Positions 13,857 through 61,923 of a stretch of 64,000 nt of DNA are shown here, one piece after another. The notes beneath the pieces are model-generated. The model was not told the DNA's origin. It was given only the letters and a program-made list of their open reading frames with translations, and ran no database searches. This stretch comes from Agromyces archimandritae (lineage in GTDB: Bacteria > Actinomycetota > Actinomycetes > Actinomycetales > Microbacteriaceae), in the NCBI RefSeq assembly GCF_018024495.1, contig NZ_CP071696.1, forward strand, positions 2,232,001 through 2,296,000. Direction: 5' to 3'. Made by a program: the position numbers and the translations under genes. Each line of letters begins with the position of its first letter. Position 1 is the first letter of the stretch.

Positions 13857-14105
13857 GGTCTCGAGACGCTCGCTGCGCTCGCTCCTCGACCGGCGGAGGG
13901 GGGCTCGCTGCGCTCGCTCCTCGACCGGCGGAAGGGGGCTCGCTGCGCTCGCTCCTCGACCGGCGGAAGGGGGCTCGCTGCGCTCGCTCCTCGACCGGCG
14001 GAGGGGCGCCGCCCGTCGGTCGAGTAGGCCGCTGGCGGCCGTATCGAGACCAGCGAGCCCCCCTCCGTCGGTCGAGTAGGCCGCTGGCGGCCGTATCGAG
14101 ACCAG
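13857..14105. repeat. Tandem 35-bp repeats plus two palindromes
   Basis: This fills the 313-base gap 13803-14115, which has no gene. Four 35-bp units beginning GCTCGCTGCG start at 13868, 13903, 13938 and 13973, each ending in CTCGACCGGCGGA(A/G)GGG. Then come two copies of an element opening GGTCGAGTAGG and closing GTATCGAGACCAG (about 14016-14053 and 14070-14105), separated by 16 bases. All share the GGTCTCGA...TCGACC ends seen at 77-367. The array separates convergent genes (TetR and ramB), where it may serve as a bidirectional stop. Confidence 0.9.
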
Positions 14106-30540: not shown

Positions 30541-30626
30541 TGCGCAATGCAGGAACGCACCCGGCGTGTCGTCCCCGCCCATGCGGGAGAACGCCCCGCG
30601 ACACGGTTGCACTCCTGCATTGCGCA
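30541..30626. repeat. Palindrome type B, copy 1
   Basis: An 86-bp element with ends TGCGCAATGCAGGA and TCCTGCATTGCGCA. Inner GTGTCG/CGACAC arms continue the pairing. It is almost identical to copy 2 at 30753, and shares its terminal arms with copies 3 and 4, which bracket the second AbiEi/DUF559 gene 28 kb away. Confidence 0.9.
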
Positions 30627-30752: not shown

Positions 30753-30837
30753 TGCGCAATGCAGGAACGCACCCGGCGTGTCGTCCCCGCCATGCGGGAG
30801 AACGCCCCGCGACACGGTTGCACTCCTGCATTGCGCA
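30753..30837. repeat. Palindrome type B, copy 2
   Basis: An 85-bp element, one base shorter than copy 1 and otherwise nearly identical, including flanking CGCTTTC and AGGG. Both copies run in the same orientation, 212 bases apart, suggesting duplication of the whole element with its flanks. Confidence 0.9.
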
Positions 30838-54303: not shown

Positions 54304-54373
54304 TTCCGGGGGTCGTATCCCGCCACCTTTCCGCGGTTTCCGCGATTCGGATGGCGGGATACGACCCCCGGAA
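54304..54373. repeat. Palindrome type C with perfect 22-bp arms
   Basis: The arms open TTCCGGGGGTCGTATC (54304-54325) and close with the exact complement (54352-54373). Inside, CGCGG-TTT-CCGCG makes a second hairpin. It lies between the MFS and FBP genes, after the former's stop; it has no T-run. It belongs to neither type A nor type B. Confidence 0.9.
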
Positions 54374-56453: not shown

Positions 56454-57422
56454 ATGACCACCGCCGATCTCATCGGCAAGATCCTGCAGATCCTCATGGG
56501 TCTCGCGGTGTTCGCCGCGATCATCGGGCTCATCATCTTCTTCATCGACAAGGCGCCGAAGAAGGGCCGCGACTACTGGCAGCTCGTCGGCTTCCTCGCC
56601 CCGGCGATGGTGCTGCTCGCCTTCGGCCTCATCTACCCGGCCGTGCGCACCGCGCTCCTCGCGTTCCAGAACGGCGACGGCGAGTTCACCTTCGACCACT
56701 TCGTGTGGATGTTCACGCAACCGGCCGCGATCCGCACCCTGATCAACACGATCATCTGGGTCGTGCTCGTGCCGACGGTCTCGACGATCGTGGGCCTGGC
56801 GTATTCGGTCTTCATCGACAAGTCCCGCGGCGAGAAGTACTACAAGGCGCTCGTGTTCATGCCGATGGCGATCTCCTTCGTCGGCGCCGGCATCATCTGG
56901 AAGTTCGTCTACGAGTACCGCTCGGGCGGCCGTGAGCAGATCGGCCTGCTGAACGCGATCGTGGTCGCCTTCGGCGGCGAGCCCGTGCAGTGGATCCAGA
57001 CCGACCCCGTCAACACCTTCCTGCTGATCATCGTCATGATCTGGATCCAGACCGGGTTCGCGATGGTCGTGCTCTCGGCGGCGATCAAGGGCATCCCGAC
57101 CGAACAGCTCGAGGCCGCCGAGCTCGACGGCACGAACGCGTGGCAGCGCTTCCGCAACGTCACCCTGCCGGGCATCCAGGGCTCCCTCGTCGTCGTCGTC
57201 ACGACGATCTCGATCGCCACACTCAAGGTCTTCGACATCGTCCGCACCATGACCGCCGGCAACTTCAACACCTCGGTCGTGGCGAACGAGATGTATACGC
57301 AGGCATTCCGCGCGAGCGAATACGGGCGGGGCGCAGCGCTCGCGCTGATCCTCTTCGTGCTCGTGCTGCCGATCGTGGTCTACAACGTCAGAGTGCTCCG
57401 CAAGCAGAGGGAGATCCGATGA
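56454..57422 (+). CDS. Alpha-glucoside ABC transporter permease (AglF-like)
   Basis: A 322-residue permease. An extra N-terminal helix (LIGKILQILMGLAVFAAIIGLIIFFI) precedes the normal six spans, as in AglF-type permeases. QLEAAELDGTNAWQRFRNVTLPGIQGSLVVV carries the EAA loop. GGGAGG precedes the ATG at 56454. Its stop overlaps the next permease (ATGA). No ATPase gene is present in the cluster. Confidence 0.9.
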   Translation: MTTADLIGKILQILMGLAVFAAIIGLIIFFIDKAPKKGRDYWQLVGFLAPAMVLLAFGLIYPAVRTALLAFQNGDGEFTFDHFVWMFTQPAAIRTLINTIIWVVLVPTVSTIVGLAYSVFIDKSRGEKYYKALVFMPMAISFVGAGIIWKFVYEYRSGGREQIGLLNAIVVAFGGEPVQWIQTDPVNTFLLIIVMIWIQTGFAMVVLSAAIKGIPTEQLEAAELDGTNAWQRFRNVTLPGIQGSLVVVVTTISIATLKVFDIVRTMTAGNFNTSVVANEMYTQAFRASEYGRGAALALILFVLVLPIVVYNVRVLRKQREIR

Positions 57423-58405
57423 GCGACGACATCGTCGACCTGCCGACGCCGGGCACCCGGGGCGGGAGCGACACGGCATCCATCGTCGCGCAGGGTTCGA
57501 AGACGCACCGCGTCAAGCGCCGTCTCACCTCCCGCACCGCCACGGTCGTCTCCCTCGTCATCGCCGTGATCTGGACGATCCCGACCTTCGGCCTGCTCGT
57601 CTCCTCGTTCCGGCCCGCCGAGCAGATCCAGTCGACCGGCTGGTGGACGGTCTTCCAGAACTGGGGCTGGACCCTCGACAACTACGCCGAGGTGCTGTTC
57701 TCGCCCTCGCAGTCGTCGCCGCAGCTCGGCGCGTACTTCGTGAACTCGCTCGCCATCGCGATCCCGGCGACCCTGTTCCCGCTGGTGATCGCCTGCATGG
57801 CCGCGTACGCCTTCGCGTGGATCAAGTTCAAGGGCGCCGGCGCCCTGTTCGTGTTCGTGTTCGCGCTGCAGATCGTGCCGCTGCAGATGGCGCTCATCCC
57901 GCTGCTGCAGATCTTCACCGCGTGGCTGCGGCCCATGCAGGCGTGGCTGCACGACATCGTGCCGATCATCCCCGAGCAGAACTACCTGCCGGTGTGGATC
58001 GCGCACACGATCTTCGCGCTGCCGCTCGCGATCTTCCTGCTGCACAACTTCATCTCCGAGATCCCGACCGACGTCATCGAGGCCGCCCGCGTCGACGGCG
58101 CCACGCACGGGCAGATCTTCTTCCGCATCGTGCTGCCGCTGTCGATCCCGGCGATCGCCTCGTTCGCCATCTTCCAGTTCCTGTGGGTGTGGAACGACCT
58201 GCTGGTCGCCCTGATCTTCTCGGGCGGCACGCAGGACGTCGCGCCGCTCACCCAGCGATTGGCGGAGCTCACCGGCACCCGCGGGCAGGACTGGGAGCGC
58301 CTCACGGCCGCCGCCTTCGTCTCCCTCATCATCCCCCTCATCGTCTTCTTCAGCCTGCAGAGATACTTCGTGCGCGGCCTTCTGGCCGGTTCCACGAAGG
58401 GTTGA
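57419..58405 (+). CDS. Alpha-glucoside ABC transporter permease (AglG-like)
   Basis: A 328-residue permease with six spans. DVIEAARVDGATHGQIFFRIVLPLSIPAIASF is the EAA loop and FVRGLLAGSTKG the usual permease end. The ATG overlaps the AglF-like stop, behind GGGAGATCC. It is the last gene of the importer; repeats follow. A glycoside hydrolase that often accompanies such systems is not present. Confidence 0.92.
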   Translation: MSDDIVDLPTPGTRGGSDTASIVAQGSKTHRVKRRLTSRTATVVSLVIAVIWTIPTFGLLVSSFRPAEQIQSTGWWTVFQNWGWTLDNYAEVLFSPSQSSPQLGAYFVNSLAIAIPATLFPLVIACMAAYAFAWIKFKGAGALFVFVFALQIVPLQMALIPLLQIFTAWLRPMQAWLHDIVPIIPEQNYLPVWIAHTIFALPLAIFLLHNFISEIPTDVIEAARVDGATHGQIFFRIVLPLSIPAIASFAIFQFLWVWNDLLVALIFSGGTQDVAPLTQRLAELTGTRGQDWERLTAAAFVSLIIPLIVFFSLQRYFVRGLLAGSTKG

Positions 58406-58584: not shown

Positions 58585-58670
58585 TGCGCAATGCAGGAAC
58601 GCACCCGTGTCGCGGCCGGTTCCGCCGCATGGCCGGGGGCGACACGCCGTGCGCGTTCCTGCATTGCGCA
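58585..58670. repeat. Palindrome type B, copy 3
   Basis: An 86-bp element with ends TGCGCAATGCAGGAACGCAC and its near-exact complement, and inner GTGTCG/CGACAC arms. It lies 51 bases past the stop of the AbiEi/DUF559 gene. Copy 4 lies on the other side of that gene. Confidence 0.92.
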
Positions 58671-58721
58671 GAGCCGAGGGGTGGATGCCGGGGTGCGCCC
58701 ATCGCGGTGACCGCGGCCGTC

Positions 58722-59576
58722 TCAGGCCGGCGCCCGGCCGGCGCCGTCGAGCGAGGCGCGCACGGCCGCGATGACGAGGTACCAGGAATCCATCACCGTG
58801 CGGTAGTCGAAGCGCAGCACCCGGTACCCCATCGCGGTGAGCATGGCATCCCGTCGGCGGTCCTCGGCGTACTGCTCGGCCGTGCGATGCGTCGAACCGT
58901 CCCATTCGACGACGAGCCAGCCGTCGATGACGAGGTCGACACGGCCGACGCCGGCGATCTCGACCTGATGCCGGCCGCGGATGCCGCACCGTTCGAGCCG
59001 GACGCGGCCGATCGTCTCGAGGAAGCTGTGGCAGAGGGCCTCGAGCTCGGGAAGGGCGGCGCGGATGTGCGGCGGCAGCTTCGACATCCACTGTTCGAGC
59101 AGGACGTCACGCCCGCGCCCCTGAGCGAGGAAGGAATCGAACGCGGCGGCGGTGTGCTCGGGGCTCGCGCAGCGGGCGATCTGCATGAGCGTTTCGAACC
59201 ATGAGGTGACGAGGCGCGTGCTGCGCTCCGTCGTGCTCCAGTGCACGACGGTGCCCGGCGGTTCGTCGGCGCGGCGCAGGCGGGATGCAGTGGCCGGCAC
59301 GGTCACGTGCAGTCCGTGGTGTTCGGGCGTCGCCCATCCGTGGTGGGCGGCGGCGGAGACGCAGCCGAGCCGGCCGCCGATGCGGATCGCCTCGCGGATG
59401 CCGGGGTCGAGGGCGGGCAGCGCGTACCACCCGCGGCGGATGCGTTCGATGTCGCCTGCGTGCATCGCCGCGGCGAGGGCGGAGCGGTCGACGCCGAGCG
59501 CACGGAGCTCCGCGGTCGTGGCCGCGCCGTCGAGGCGTCGCAGGGCGTGACGGGGCGGGATTCGGGTGTGGGCCAT
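58722..59576 (-). CDS. AbiEi-family protein with C-terminal DUF559 (Vsr-like) domain
   Basis: A 284-residue protein. The first ~80 residues are an AbiEi-type N-terminal winged-helix (RLDGAATTAELRALGVDRSALAAAMHAGDIERIRRGWYALPALD). The C terminus (about 195-284) is DUF559: GVGRVDLVIDGWLVVEWDGSTHRTAEQYAEDRRRDAMLTAMGYRVLRFDY, with the D...E-x-D nuclease residues. No AbiEii toxin gene is next to it. The ATG at 59576 has no strong ribosome site. Type B palindromes lie 51 bases past its stop and 187 bases before its start. It is a distant cousin of the protein at 20280. Function unknown. Confidence 0.8.
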   Translation of the reverse strand: MAHTRIPPRHALRRLDGAATTAELRALGVDRSALAAAMHAGDIERIRRGWYALPALDPGIREAIRIGGRLGCVSAAAHHGWATPEHHGLHVTVPATASRLRRADEPPGTVVHWSTTERSTRLVTSWFETLMQIARCASPEHTAAAFDSFLAQGRGRDVLLEQWMSKLPPHIRAALPELEALCHSFLETIGRVRLERCGIRGRHQVEIAGVGRVDLVIDGWLVVEWDGSTHRTAEQYAEDRRRDAMLTAMGYRVLRFDYRTVMDSWYLVIAAVRASLDGAGRAPA

Positions 59577-59763
59577 GCGGAGATCTTCGGGCCCGCGGGG
59601 GCCTCGGATCGGCTGCGGCGAGAATCTGTGGATTCGGCGGCGGCTCAGGATGCCGGTGGAGGAGACGTCGCGGGGCGGCGGAGCGGATGCCGGTCGGCAG
59701 CGGGGACCCCTTCGAGCTCCTCCGGGTTCCCCCGGATTCGTCCGCGGTTCTCGGGGCGCCTTC

Positions 59764-59848
59764 TGCGCAATGCAGGAACGCGCACGGCGTGTCGGGCTCG
59801 CCATGCGGCGGGAGGGGTCGCGACACGGGTGCGTTCCTGCATTGCGCA
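59764..59848. repeat. Palindrome type B, copy 4
   Basis: An 85-bp element with the same TGCGCAATGCAGGA(A) ends as copies 1-3 and a slightly different centre. It lies upstream of the AbiEi/DUF559 gene within the 436-base gap 59577-60012, which has no gene. Confidence 0.92.
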
Positions 59849-60012: not shown

Positions 60013-61923
60013 ATGAGCATGGGCGGCGGTGGGGGCCGCGCGGCGCGTGCCGCAGGGGTGCCGCCGGGCGGCGGGCACGGCGGCGGGCGCGGGCGTGTCG
60101 GGGCGGCCGACGAGGACGCGCAGCGTGCGCTGAACGCCGAGGCGCCGAAGATCCCGAACCTGCTCGGGCGTATCGCCGGGCTGTTCCGGGCCCACCGGGG
60201 GCCGCTCATCACGGTCGTGGTGCTCGTGCTCGTCGGTGCGGCGCTCAGCGTGGTGCCGCCGCTGCTCACGCAGCGCGCCTTCGACGACGGGCTCTTCCCC
60301 GAGACCGGGCCGGATCTGCCGGTGCTCGGCGGCCTGGTCGCGGCGATGATCGTGGTGTTCGTCGTGTCGGCGCTCATCGGCGTGTGGCAGACGTGGCTGA
60401 CCTCGCGCATCGGCAACCGGGTGATGGGCGAGCTCAGGGTGCGGCTGTTCACGCATCTGCAGGCGATGGAGCTGAGCTTCTTCACCCGCACGAAGACGGG
60501 CGTCATCCAGTCGCGGCTGCAGAACGACGTCGGCGGGGTCGCGAACGTGCTGACGAACACGGTGTCGAGCGTGCTCGGCAACACCGTGACGGTGATCTCG
60601 GCGTTCGTGGCGATGGTGCTCCTGAACTGGCAGCTGACCCTGATCGCGGTCGTGCTGATGCCGTTCATGGTGATCGCCCAGCGCAGGGTGGGGCAGGTGC
60701 GGGCTCGCATCGCGGCGAAGACGCAGGAGTCCTTGTCGGAGATGACGGCGATCACGCAGGAGACGCTGTCGGTCTCGGGCATCCTGCTGTCGAAGTCGTT
60801 CAGCCGCCAGCAGTCGGAGATCGACCGCTACGCCGACGAGAACCGGAACCAGATCCGTCTGCAGGTCAAGCAGCAGATGACCGGGCAGTGGTTCTTCGCG
60901 ATGGTGAACATCTTCCTGTCGTCGATCCCGGCGATCGTGTACCTCTTGTCGGGCTGGCTGATCACGGGCGGGGCGACGGATGTCACGGCGGGCACGATCG
61001 TCGCGTTCACGACCGTGCAGGGCCGGCTGCTGTTCCCGCTGATGGGCCTGATGCGGGTCGCCCTCGACCTGCAGACCTCGGGGGCGCTGTTCGCGCGCAT
61101 CTTCGAGTACCTCGATCTGAAGCCCGCGATCACGGACGCGTCGGATGCGGTGGATGTGCCGCCCGGCGCCCCGGTCGGCCGCATCGAGTTCGACCACGTC
61201 TCGTTCCGTTATCCCGATGCCGAGGCGGATGCCCGGCCGACCCTCGACGACGTGTCGTTCACCGTGGAGCCGGGGCAGTTCGCGGCGTTCGTGGGGCCGA
61301 GCGGGGCGGGCAAGACGACGGTGTCGTACCTCGTGCCGAGGCTGTACGAGGCGTCGAGCGGATCGGTGCGGTTCGCCGGCGTGGACGTGCGGGACCTCAG
61401 GCGCGAGTCGCTCATGGAGCACATCGGCATCGTGAGCCAGGAGACCTACCTCTTCCACGCATCCATCGCCGAGAATCTGCGGTACGCGAAACCCGACGCG
61501 AGCGATGCCGAGCTCGAGGCGGCGGCACGGGCGGCGAACATCCACGAGACGATAGCCTCGTTCCCCGATGGCTACGACACCCTCGTCGGCGAACGCGGGT
61601 ACCGGCTCTCGGGCGGCGAGAAGCAGCGGATCGCGATCGCGCGGGTGCTGCTGAAGGACCCGGAGGTGCTCGTGCTCGACGAGGCGACGAGCGCCCTCGA
61701 CACGATCTCGGAGCGCGTCGTGCAGTCCGCGATCGACGACGCGTCGAAGGGGCGGACGACGATCGCGATCGCCCACCGGCTGACGACGGTGATCGCCGCG
61801 GACGTGATCTTCGTGATCGTGGCGGGGCGGATCACCGAGCGCGGCACGCATGCGGACCTCCTCGCGGCCGGCGGCGTGTACGCGAGCCTGTACGCGCAGC
61901 AGGCCGAGCAGCCCGCCGACTGA
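60013..61923 (+). CDS. ABC exporter (fused permease-ATPase)
   Basis: A 636-residue half-transporter of the MsbA/LmrA type. A Gly/Arg-rich cytoplasmic tail (~45 residues) leads into six spans (about 60-340). The ATPase domain has Walker A GPSGAGKTT, Q-loop IVSQETYLF, signature LSGGEKQRIAIARVLL, Walker B VLVLDEATSALD and H-loop AIAHRL. It would homodimerise or pair with a similar protein to export lipids or drugs. TAGGGT ends six bases before the ATG at 60013, so it is probably leaderless. The gene stands alone. Confidence 0.92.
   Translation: MSMGGGGGRAARAAGVPPGGGHGGGRGRVGAADEDAQRALNAEAPKIPNLLGRIAGLFRAHRGPLITVVVLVLVGAALSVVPPLLTQRAFDDGLFPETGPDLPVLGGLVAAMIVVFVVSALIGVWQTWLTSRIGNRVMGELRVRLFTHLQAMELSFFTRTKTGVIQSRLQNDVGGVANVLTNTVSSVLGNTVTVISAFVAMVLLNWQLTLIAVVLMPFMVIAQRRVGQVRARIAAKTQESLSEMTAITQETLSVSGILLSKSFSRQQSEIDRYADENRNQIRLQVKQQMTGQWFFAMVNIFLSSIPAIVYLLSGWLITGGATDVTAGTIVAFTTVQGRLLFPLMGLMRVALDLQTSGALFARIFEYLDLKPAITDASDAVDVPPGAPVGRIEFDHVSFRYPDAEADARPTLDDVSFTVEPGQFAAFVGPSGAGKTTVSYLVPRLYEASSGSVRFAGVDVRDLRRESLMEHIGIVSQETYLFHASIAENLRYAKPDASDAELEAAARAANIHETIASFPDGYDTLVGERGYRLSGGEKQRIAIARVLLKDPEVLVLDEATSALDTISERVVQSAIDDASKGRTTIAIAHRLTTVIAADVIFVIVAGRITERGTHADLLAAGGVYASLYAQQAEQPAD

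Follow-up and report, generated by a model that had tools for sequence, protein, structure and literature searches.

INTRODUCTION

Why should the gene for a putative nuclease lie between two copies of a palindrome, further copies of which occur where there is no such gene? The question is raised by a 64,000-nucleotide stretch of the genome of Agromyces archimandritae (contig NZ_CP071696.1, positions 2,232,001 to 2,296,000), referred to here as ‘the window’. The layout recalls that of REP palindromes and the RAYT genes that accompany them. RAYT genes are reported to be flanked always by two inverted REPs (PMC2817692), and to be single-copy and vertically inherited, their presence going with larger numbers of REPINs (PMC8049555).

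In this report, we describe the bracketing of the gene by its palindromes, the match between palindrome ‘dialects’ and protein clades, the way in which copy number tracks the gene, the near-invariant arms and free linkers of the elements, and the conservation of the putative catalytic residues. We conclude that gene and palindromes are very probably functionally paired, a real pairing of protein with palindrome. We also lean toward the full account, in which the AbiEi-EDxHD nuclease and the palindromes form one system organised like REPIN-RAYT; the binding, cutting and copying that this account includes are what we infer. The palindromes of the window are termed ‘family A’, and two further sets, ‘family B’ and ‘family C’. 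The features of the locus are collected in Table 1.

Table 1. The gene, its neighbours and the family A palindromes in the window
Feature	Position	Strand or polarity	Remarks
AbiEi-DUF559 gene, 284 aa	58722..59576	minus	Pfam AbiEi_4 and DUF559, both above cut-offs
Left neighbour, transport permease BPD_transp_1	57419..58405	plus	homologous neighbour in 4/4 genomes with the gene subfamily
Right neighbour, ABC transporter	60013..61923	plus	homologous neighbour in 4/4 genomes with the gene subfamily
Palindrome downstream of gene	58585..58670	polarity minus	short arm outward
Palindrome upstream of gene	59764..59848	polarity plus	short arm outward
Orphan palindrome	30541..30626	polarity plus	
Orphan palindrome	30753..30837	polarity plus	tandem neighbour of 30541
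Outer arm TGCGCAATGCAGGA	58585..58598	plus	near-invariant box 1
Outer arm, reverse copy	58657..58670	minus	
Inner box GTGTCG	58607..58612	plus	fixed offset 22 from short arm
Inner box GTGTCG, opposite strand	58640..58645	minus	offset 25; extra GGC gives polarity

THE PROTEIN AND ITS RELATIVES

The protein comprises an AbiEi-like winged helix and C-terminal part (approximately residues 3–179), fused to an EDxHD/Vsr-like nuclease domain (approximately residues 180–280). It was modelled with AlphaFold2 from 88 input sequences (mean pLDDT 94.4), and the predicted model was compared with known structures by Foldseek and VIA-align, the matches being 6y8q, 3r3p, 1cw0 and 3hrl. Residues 3–179 of the model resemble the AbiEi antitoxin 6y8q, and residues 180–280 the catalytic domain of the homing endonuclease I-Bth0305I, Vsr, and 3hrl. 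The AbiEi/DUF559 assignment of the original prediction agrees with both Pfam domains, and the kinship with Vsr that it had suggested for the DUF559 part reappears in the predicted fold.

Four residues, E187, D214, H230 and D239, are invariant in all 90 Agromyces homologues examined; in the same proteins, position 224 is E in 72, Q in 17 and D in one. In our reading, the four form an EDxHD motif and are putative catalytic residues. EDxHD nucleases are a recognised family of homing endonucleases (PMC6083498). By this reading, the predicted domain shares with these the E-D-x-H-D residues and, by its model, the I-Bth0305I catalytic-domain fold; unlike them and Vsr, it is fused to an AbiEi part, and its gene has an intergenic setting with a transport gene on either side, families A and B each having a single conserved locus.

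AbiEi proteins are the antitoxins of type IV systems. AbiEi and Rv2827c are each described as binding the 23-bp inverted repeats of their own promoter and not those of the other (PMC7319586), an analogy that makes it plausible that the AbiEi part here reads palindromes. The likeness to these antitoxins lies in the AbiEi fold predicted for the N-terminal two thirds, and in the inverted repeats that AbiEi is reported to bind (PMC7319586); the differences are the attached nuclease domain and the dispersal of the matched palindromes over the genome. AbiE toxin–antitoxin loci differ further, since the genes on either side in the window are for transport and no DUF1814 (AbiEii) toxin gene is adjacent.

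The same features bear on a role in defence or addiction, in which the nuclease would be tamed by binding to palindromes and set free under stress or when a phage enters, with the orphan copies as decoys. The match of the AbiEi part to type IV antitoxin models, the binding of inverted repeats by AbiEi relatives (PMC7319586) and the intact putative nuclease residues all fit such a role. We consider it improbable nonetheless: no toxin partner adjoins the gene between its two transport neighbours, PADLOC gave only AbiEi models and a weak match to DpdF, and decoys would leave the bracketing pair unexplained.

Protein matches occur in four of 72,556 plasmid records and one of 50,697 phage records, which disfavours spread by plasmids or phages, and a search of a genome-contig collection yielded no close protein relative. 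DUF559 has five matches in the genome of the window. The family A palindrome is absent from the other four of these loci, each taken with 1.5 kb on either side. Two of the four genes, L031 (at 3399724) and L034 (at 1988457), appear to be bracketed by palindromes of their own that differ from family A, with arms TTCGGAGATC and AGGTGACGCG; these matched pairs emerged after several start codons had been tried. A single genome may thus hold several independent pairs.

ANATOMY OF THE PALINDROME

Palindromes had been predicted at four positions in the window, with terminal arms alike. All four are there, and their outer arms are perfect over 14 nt (TGCGCAATGCAGGA). Folded as single strands, they give z-scores of -6.6 to -7.2, and none of 200 shuffles was equally stable. 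Read in one polarity, the element consists of TGCGCAATGCAGGA, 8 nt, GGC followed by GTGTCG, a centre of approximately CATGCGGCAGAA, CGACAC, 8 nt and TCCTGCATTGCGCA. In 63 of the 67 copies collected from the genome, the inner box is offset by 25 nt at one end and by 22 nt at the other; because these offsets are unequal, the element has polarity.

The elements combine near-invariant boxes with freely varying sequence between them. Over 38 separate sites, divergence is 0.56% in the outer arms and 2.2% in the inner boxes, against 39% in the linkers and 36% in the centre, figures that are biased by the collection of elements through their exact arms. Only four of the 67 copies have one damaged arm, so doubly damaged copies should be rare. 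An RNA with conserved structure can be set aside, as double changes were found at none of 19 consensus pairs; the boxes are therefore conserved as sequence, as expected of sites for a protein. Rfam at gathering scores finds only a tRNA in the window, which disposes of a known RNA family. At the 38 sites there is no excess of direct repeats of 2–10 nt that would indicate target-site duplication, and the junctions have pyrimidines on the 5' side of the element and purines on the 3' side.

The window contains other inverted repeats. One type, unlike the family A palindromes in sequence, occurs at 72-336 and 13882-14079, with arms resembling CTCGACCGGCGG and GTCTCGATACG. Another, at 54304-54373, is a perfect 22-nt inverted repeat with a 26-nt spacer (TTCCGGGGGTCGTATCCCGCCA).

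COPIES THROUGHOUT THE GENOME

The exact 14-mer TGCGCAATGCAGGA occurs 68 times in the forward and 64 times in the reverse orientation in the 3.45-Mb genome, and its reversed control not once in either. From the stretches around these exact-arm sites, at least 67 full elements of 85–87 bp were collected, and a covariance model added at least two further places among the candidates that it scored. The two orphans that the original prediction had placed at 30541 and 30753 are real, then, and are merely the window's share of this larger population.

Sixty-six of the 67 elements lie outside called genes, most often between convergent gene pairs; the gene calls come from a crude codon-usage script, one that missed the DUF559 gene itself. 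Some copies have multiplied in tandem (e.g. five at 1609736-1610632). The elements span 0.47 to 2.52 Mb and crowd toward the origin, with 37 of 40 sites in the half of the chromosome closest to it (KS P = 4e-8); the origin was placed by dnaA alone, at 1,713,618. Their polarity has no clear bias with respect to the replication strand (10 plus and 10 minus to the left, six plus and 12 minus to the right). Nearby copies do not enclose a special cargo: of ten genes scanned between them, seven have ordinary Pfam domains (GntR, methyltransferase, LacI, LysR, metallo-beta-lactamase fold, NUDIX and FKBP), one is an ISL3 transposase gene and two have no Pfam match.

These scattered copies weigh against the simplest reading of the locus, that the flanking palindromes are the operator and terminator of the gene and the dispersed ones unrelated repeats. 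AbiEi proteins are described as autoregulating through inverted repeats in their own promoter (PMC7319586), which speaks for this reading. The dispersed copies are the same 85-bp sequence, however, with the same near-invariant boxes, and the downstream copy is also a full palindrome; moreover, scattered copies occur with the gene, and their tracking of it, described below, is hard to square with this reading, to which we give very little credence.

The exact form of the element was not found outside its species in the genome-contig collection, which possibly lacks the genome of the window itself. The exact arm occurs in one of 60 genomes searched as relatives, and the two-armed pattern in one of 60 Agromyces genomes, in both cases the genome of the window.

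FAMILY A ACROSS THE GENUS

A covariance model revealed that this architecture recurs elsewhere in Agromyces, where the outer boxes differ (GCAATTCAGGT, GCAATTCAGGA and GCAACGCAGGT) and the inner box is unchanged. In counts of exact pattern matches, family A half-elements number 135 in the genome of the window (G000), 76 in G069, 33 in G005, 14 in G015, nine in G002, seven in G060 and six in G004; G010 and G081 have two each, four genomes have one, and 47 of the 60 have none. The reversed-pattern control found none in any of the 60. Matches to the covariance model number at least 75, 73, 41 and 29 in the top four genomes, followed by G002 (20), G004 (14) and G060 (11). In that search, 75 candidates were scored for each genome. 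When every match with E of 1 or less is counted, 37 of the 60 genomes have one or more; many of these matches are weak and may be due to chance.

The gene has a matching distribution. Among the protein matches listed, close relatives (57–64% identity) occur only in G015, G069 and G005, the next near-full-length match being 42% identical, and this close subfamily is single-copy in each of the four genomes that have it. These four are the richest in the palindrome of all 60. With the gene-flanking copies subtracted, their half-elements still number at least 131, 72, 29 and 10, against nine in the best other genome (rank test, P = 2e-6, phylogeny ignored). An equal abundance of copies in genomes without the gene had been named at the outset as a sign that the association is chance; instead, the four gene-bearing genomes head the 60. 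Copies do occur where there is no close gene, as the half-elements of G002, G060 and G004 attest.

In all four genomes, the gene is bracketed on both sides, in the same inverted polarity and with the short arms outward, and lies at the same locus between the permease and the ABC transporter genes. Because the locus is shared, the four bracketings are one inherited state and not four events. Both flanking elements of the G015 locus are imperfect, and it fails the automatic pair test described below.

FAMILIES B AND C

Families B and C provide independent copies of this comparison. Family B (arm GCGGATATACGATC) is present in G035 (25 copies), G017 (10), G026 (eight), G002 (seven), G062 and G020 (five each), G033 (four), G075 and G076 (two each), and G012, G063, G070 and G018 (one each); 47 of the 60 genomes have none. 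A bracketed family B gene was found in G035, G017, G026, G002, G062 (where it contains a stop), G020 and G075, and the seven loci align with one another as one conserved locus. Copies in the gene-bearing genomes thus number 25, 10, 8, 7, 5, 5 and 2, against 4, 2, 1, 1, 1 and 1 in six of the 53 genomes without the gene and none in the other 47. When only orphans are counted, the seven have 24, 8, 6, 6, 4, 3 and 0 (rank test, P = 2e-7, phylogeny ignored). G033 is an exception: its four copies, near which no gene was found, exceed the three orphans of gene-bearing G020.

Family C (arm GCATGAGAATC) was predicted beforehand in seven genomes, and is present in four of them: G070 (eight copies), G010 (six), G011 (four) and G080 (one). 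An exact-pattern search found none in the other three, G068, G026 and G076. It also occurs in four genomes for which it was not predicted, G009 (five copies), G077 (four), G063 (two) and G012 (one); G009 holds a broken gene of the family C clade between two copies, 80% identical to the G026 gene over 185 residues. Without gene-flanking copies, G080 falls to zero and the prediction holds in three of seven. Fisher's test gives P = 0.004 for the prediction as written and 0.03 without the flanking copies, phylogeny again ignored; the thresholds for the Fisher tests (10 half-elements, five copies) were set after the counts were known, while the rank tests use none. Copy number tracks the gene strongly in family B and partly in family C.

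A different explanation of this tracking is that the palindromes do a job for the host, in chromosome organisation, DNA repair or self-marking: the protein would read them and selection would keep the sites, copying being rare or absent. Across 38 separate sites, the arms have hardly varied despite diverged linkers, and conservation in situ could account for this without copying; sites are concentrated in the origin half of the chromosome (37 of 40); and certain family B copies in different species have centres that are recognisably alike. The last comparison covered 37 of the 72 copies, with none from G035, G026 or G076, and few cross-species pairs among them match. Half-elements range, furthermore, from 0 to 135 among congeners, with 47 of 60 genomes having none, and a necessary job should be more widespread. 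We regard such a job as rather unlikely.

DIALECTS FOLLOW THE PROTEIN

The pairing of gene and palindrome extends beyond these families. A locus was scored as having a matched pair when palindromes lay on both sides, no more than 330 nt upstream and 280 nt downstream, with arms agreeing at 9 or more of 10 positions. The 90 Agromyces loci tested were drawn from the near-full-length ones among the protein matches listed, shorter and weaker matches being left out. Matched pairs were found at 43 of the 90 and 47 fell short, compared with 408 of 8010 when the upstream flank of one locus was paired with the downstream flank of another (part of these within one clade) and 0 of 450 when flanks were shuffled. 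At a stricter 11-nt setting, the figures are 35 of 90 loci versus 170 of 8010 cross-pairs. Other genes of the window rarely pass: two of 53, both at 9/10, and one of the ten that are flanked on each side by 100 nt or more of free sequence. It had been argued that the association would be chance if the flanks of relatives rarely held palindromes; with both sides occupied in all four members of the subfamily, and matched pairs at nearly half of the 90 loci, they hold them often.

Grouped by eye, the matched pairs comprise some twenty dialects, and across the 43 loci different protein clades have different arms, each clade its own. Sharing of an arm (a run of at least 8 nt) is all but nil below 50% protein identity, at 0% for 20–29% (232 pairs), 0.4% for 30–39% (484) and 0% for 40–49% (74). 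Above this it rises to 14% at 50–59% (78 pairs), 50% at 60–69% (22) and 62% at 70–79% (eight), and reaches 100% at 80% or more (5/5 pairs). By eye, CAGGA-like cores recur in many dialects, and an inner GACACGCCG box in several clades. Tandem copies occur here, too: at L189 (G010:C1:2662581-2662847), three palindromes lie approximately 105 bp apart beside a DUF559 gene.

MITEs, typically, are short inverted-repeat elements in many copies; those such as Correia or RUP are intergenic and have no gene inside. The palindromes are alike in being short, intergenic, multi-copy inverted repeats that enclose no gene. They might thus be common MITEs mobilised by a DDE transposase, with the DUF559 gene as a passenger flanked by chance, and the ISL3 transposase gene mentioned above does lie between copies, at genome positions 2013290 and 2014961. 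Against this, around twenty differing palindromes bracket members of one protein family, the arms track the protein, and target-site duplication was not found at the 38 sites; unlike Correia and RUP elements, the palindromes are matched to a nuclease gene family and not to an IS. We think this explanation very improbable.

In the order as a whole, the protein has matches (E 0.001 or better) in 198 of 297 sampled genomes and 70 of 94 genera. Outside Agromyces, nine of 26 loci pass the pair test versus 13 of 650 cross-pairs. One of the nine, L219, is of low complexity and doubtful; the nine span five family codes, or four without it.

A LAYOUT LIKE REPIN-RAYT, WITH A DIFFERENT ENZYME

The likeness to REP/REPIN-RAYT systems is fourfold. 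The gene lies between two inverted palindromes of its own dialect, in four of four genomes; dispersed intergenic copies match the flanking ones, at least 67 of them in the genome of the window; copies are more numerous in genomes that have the gene, for families A and B and partly for C, phylogeny being ignored; and the gene is single-copy and vertically inherited, as the homologous neighbours in four of four family A genomes and the alignment of the seven family B loci indicate. The differences lie in the enzyme and the element. In place of a Y1 (HUH) transposase there is an AbiEi part with an EDxHD nuclease, and the elements are approximately 55–115 bp long, with an arm that is bipartite and no head of the GTAG type in the alignment; inspection by eye of the aligned elements and their 30-nt flanks showed neither a GTAG- nor a CGTC-type head at a constant position. 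Nor is the enzyme a RAYT in disguise, for PF01797 has no match in the genome of the window, while control genomes were positive in 5 of 14 cases. The enzyme class of the gene is unrelated to RAYT, just as the original prediction had it in proposing a REP-like layout. As these traits of REPIN-RAYT are shared, its defining transposase is absent and no head was seen, the system works like REPIN-RAYT, and is not one.

The mechanism that we favour, in which nuclease and palindromes act as one system, would run as follows. A vertically inherited AbiEi-EDxHD protein would recognise its own palindrome dialect. Its winged-helix part would probably read the paired inverted arms, that is, the outer box together with the inner GTGTCG at fixed spacing, and its EDxHD domain would cut or nick the palindrome, which might be in extruded hairpin form. 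Further intergenic sites would then receive copies of the short palindrome through repair or re-insertion, and the gene would stay in place with a copy on either side. The original prediction also allowed that the hairpins might guard the gene, a possibility toward which the present results are neutral.

No family that we searched covers the enzyme class, the element or the pairing, which are new in this sense; what converges with a known system is the layout. In the open-access literature, we found no report of DUF559/AbiEi proteins paired with palindromes or repeats, nor of a REP-type system with an endonuclease in Actinobacteria, nor of Microbacteriaceae intergenic palindromes. A wider proposal, to which we attach about even confidence, is that AbiEi-EDxHD (DUF559) proteins are the enzymes of unreported intragenomic palindrome populations, convergent with REPIN-RAYT, across an actinobacterial order. 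Many lineages would each have one nuclease and its own dialect, several pairs might coexist in a genome, and the nuclease would actively seed and maintain its palindromes.

Relatives of AbiEi-DUF559 are very common and unexplained, and the matched palindrome offers a candidate DNA substrate for them, gene by gene. The dialects form a natural series of pairs of protein and DNA site, in which changes of specificity may be read directly. And if the proposal is true, the way of life exemplified by REPIN-RAYT would have arisen at least twice, with unrelated enzymes.
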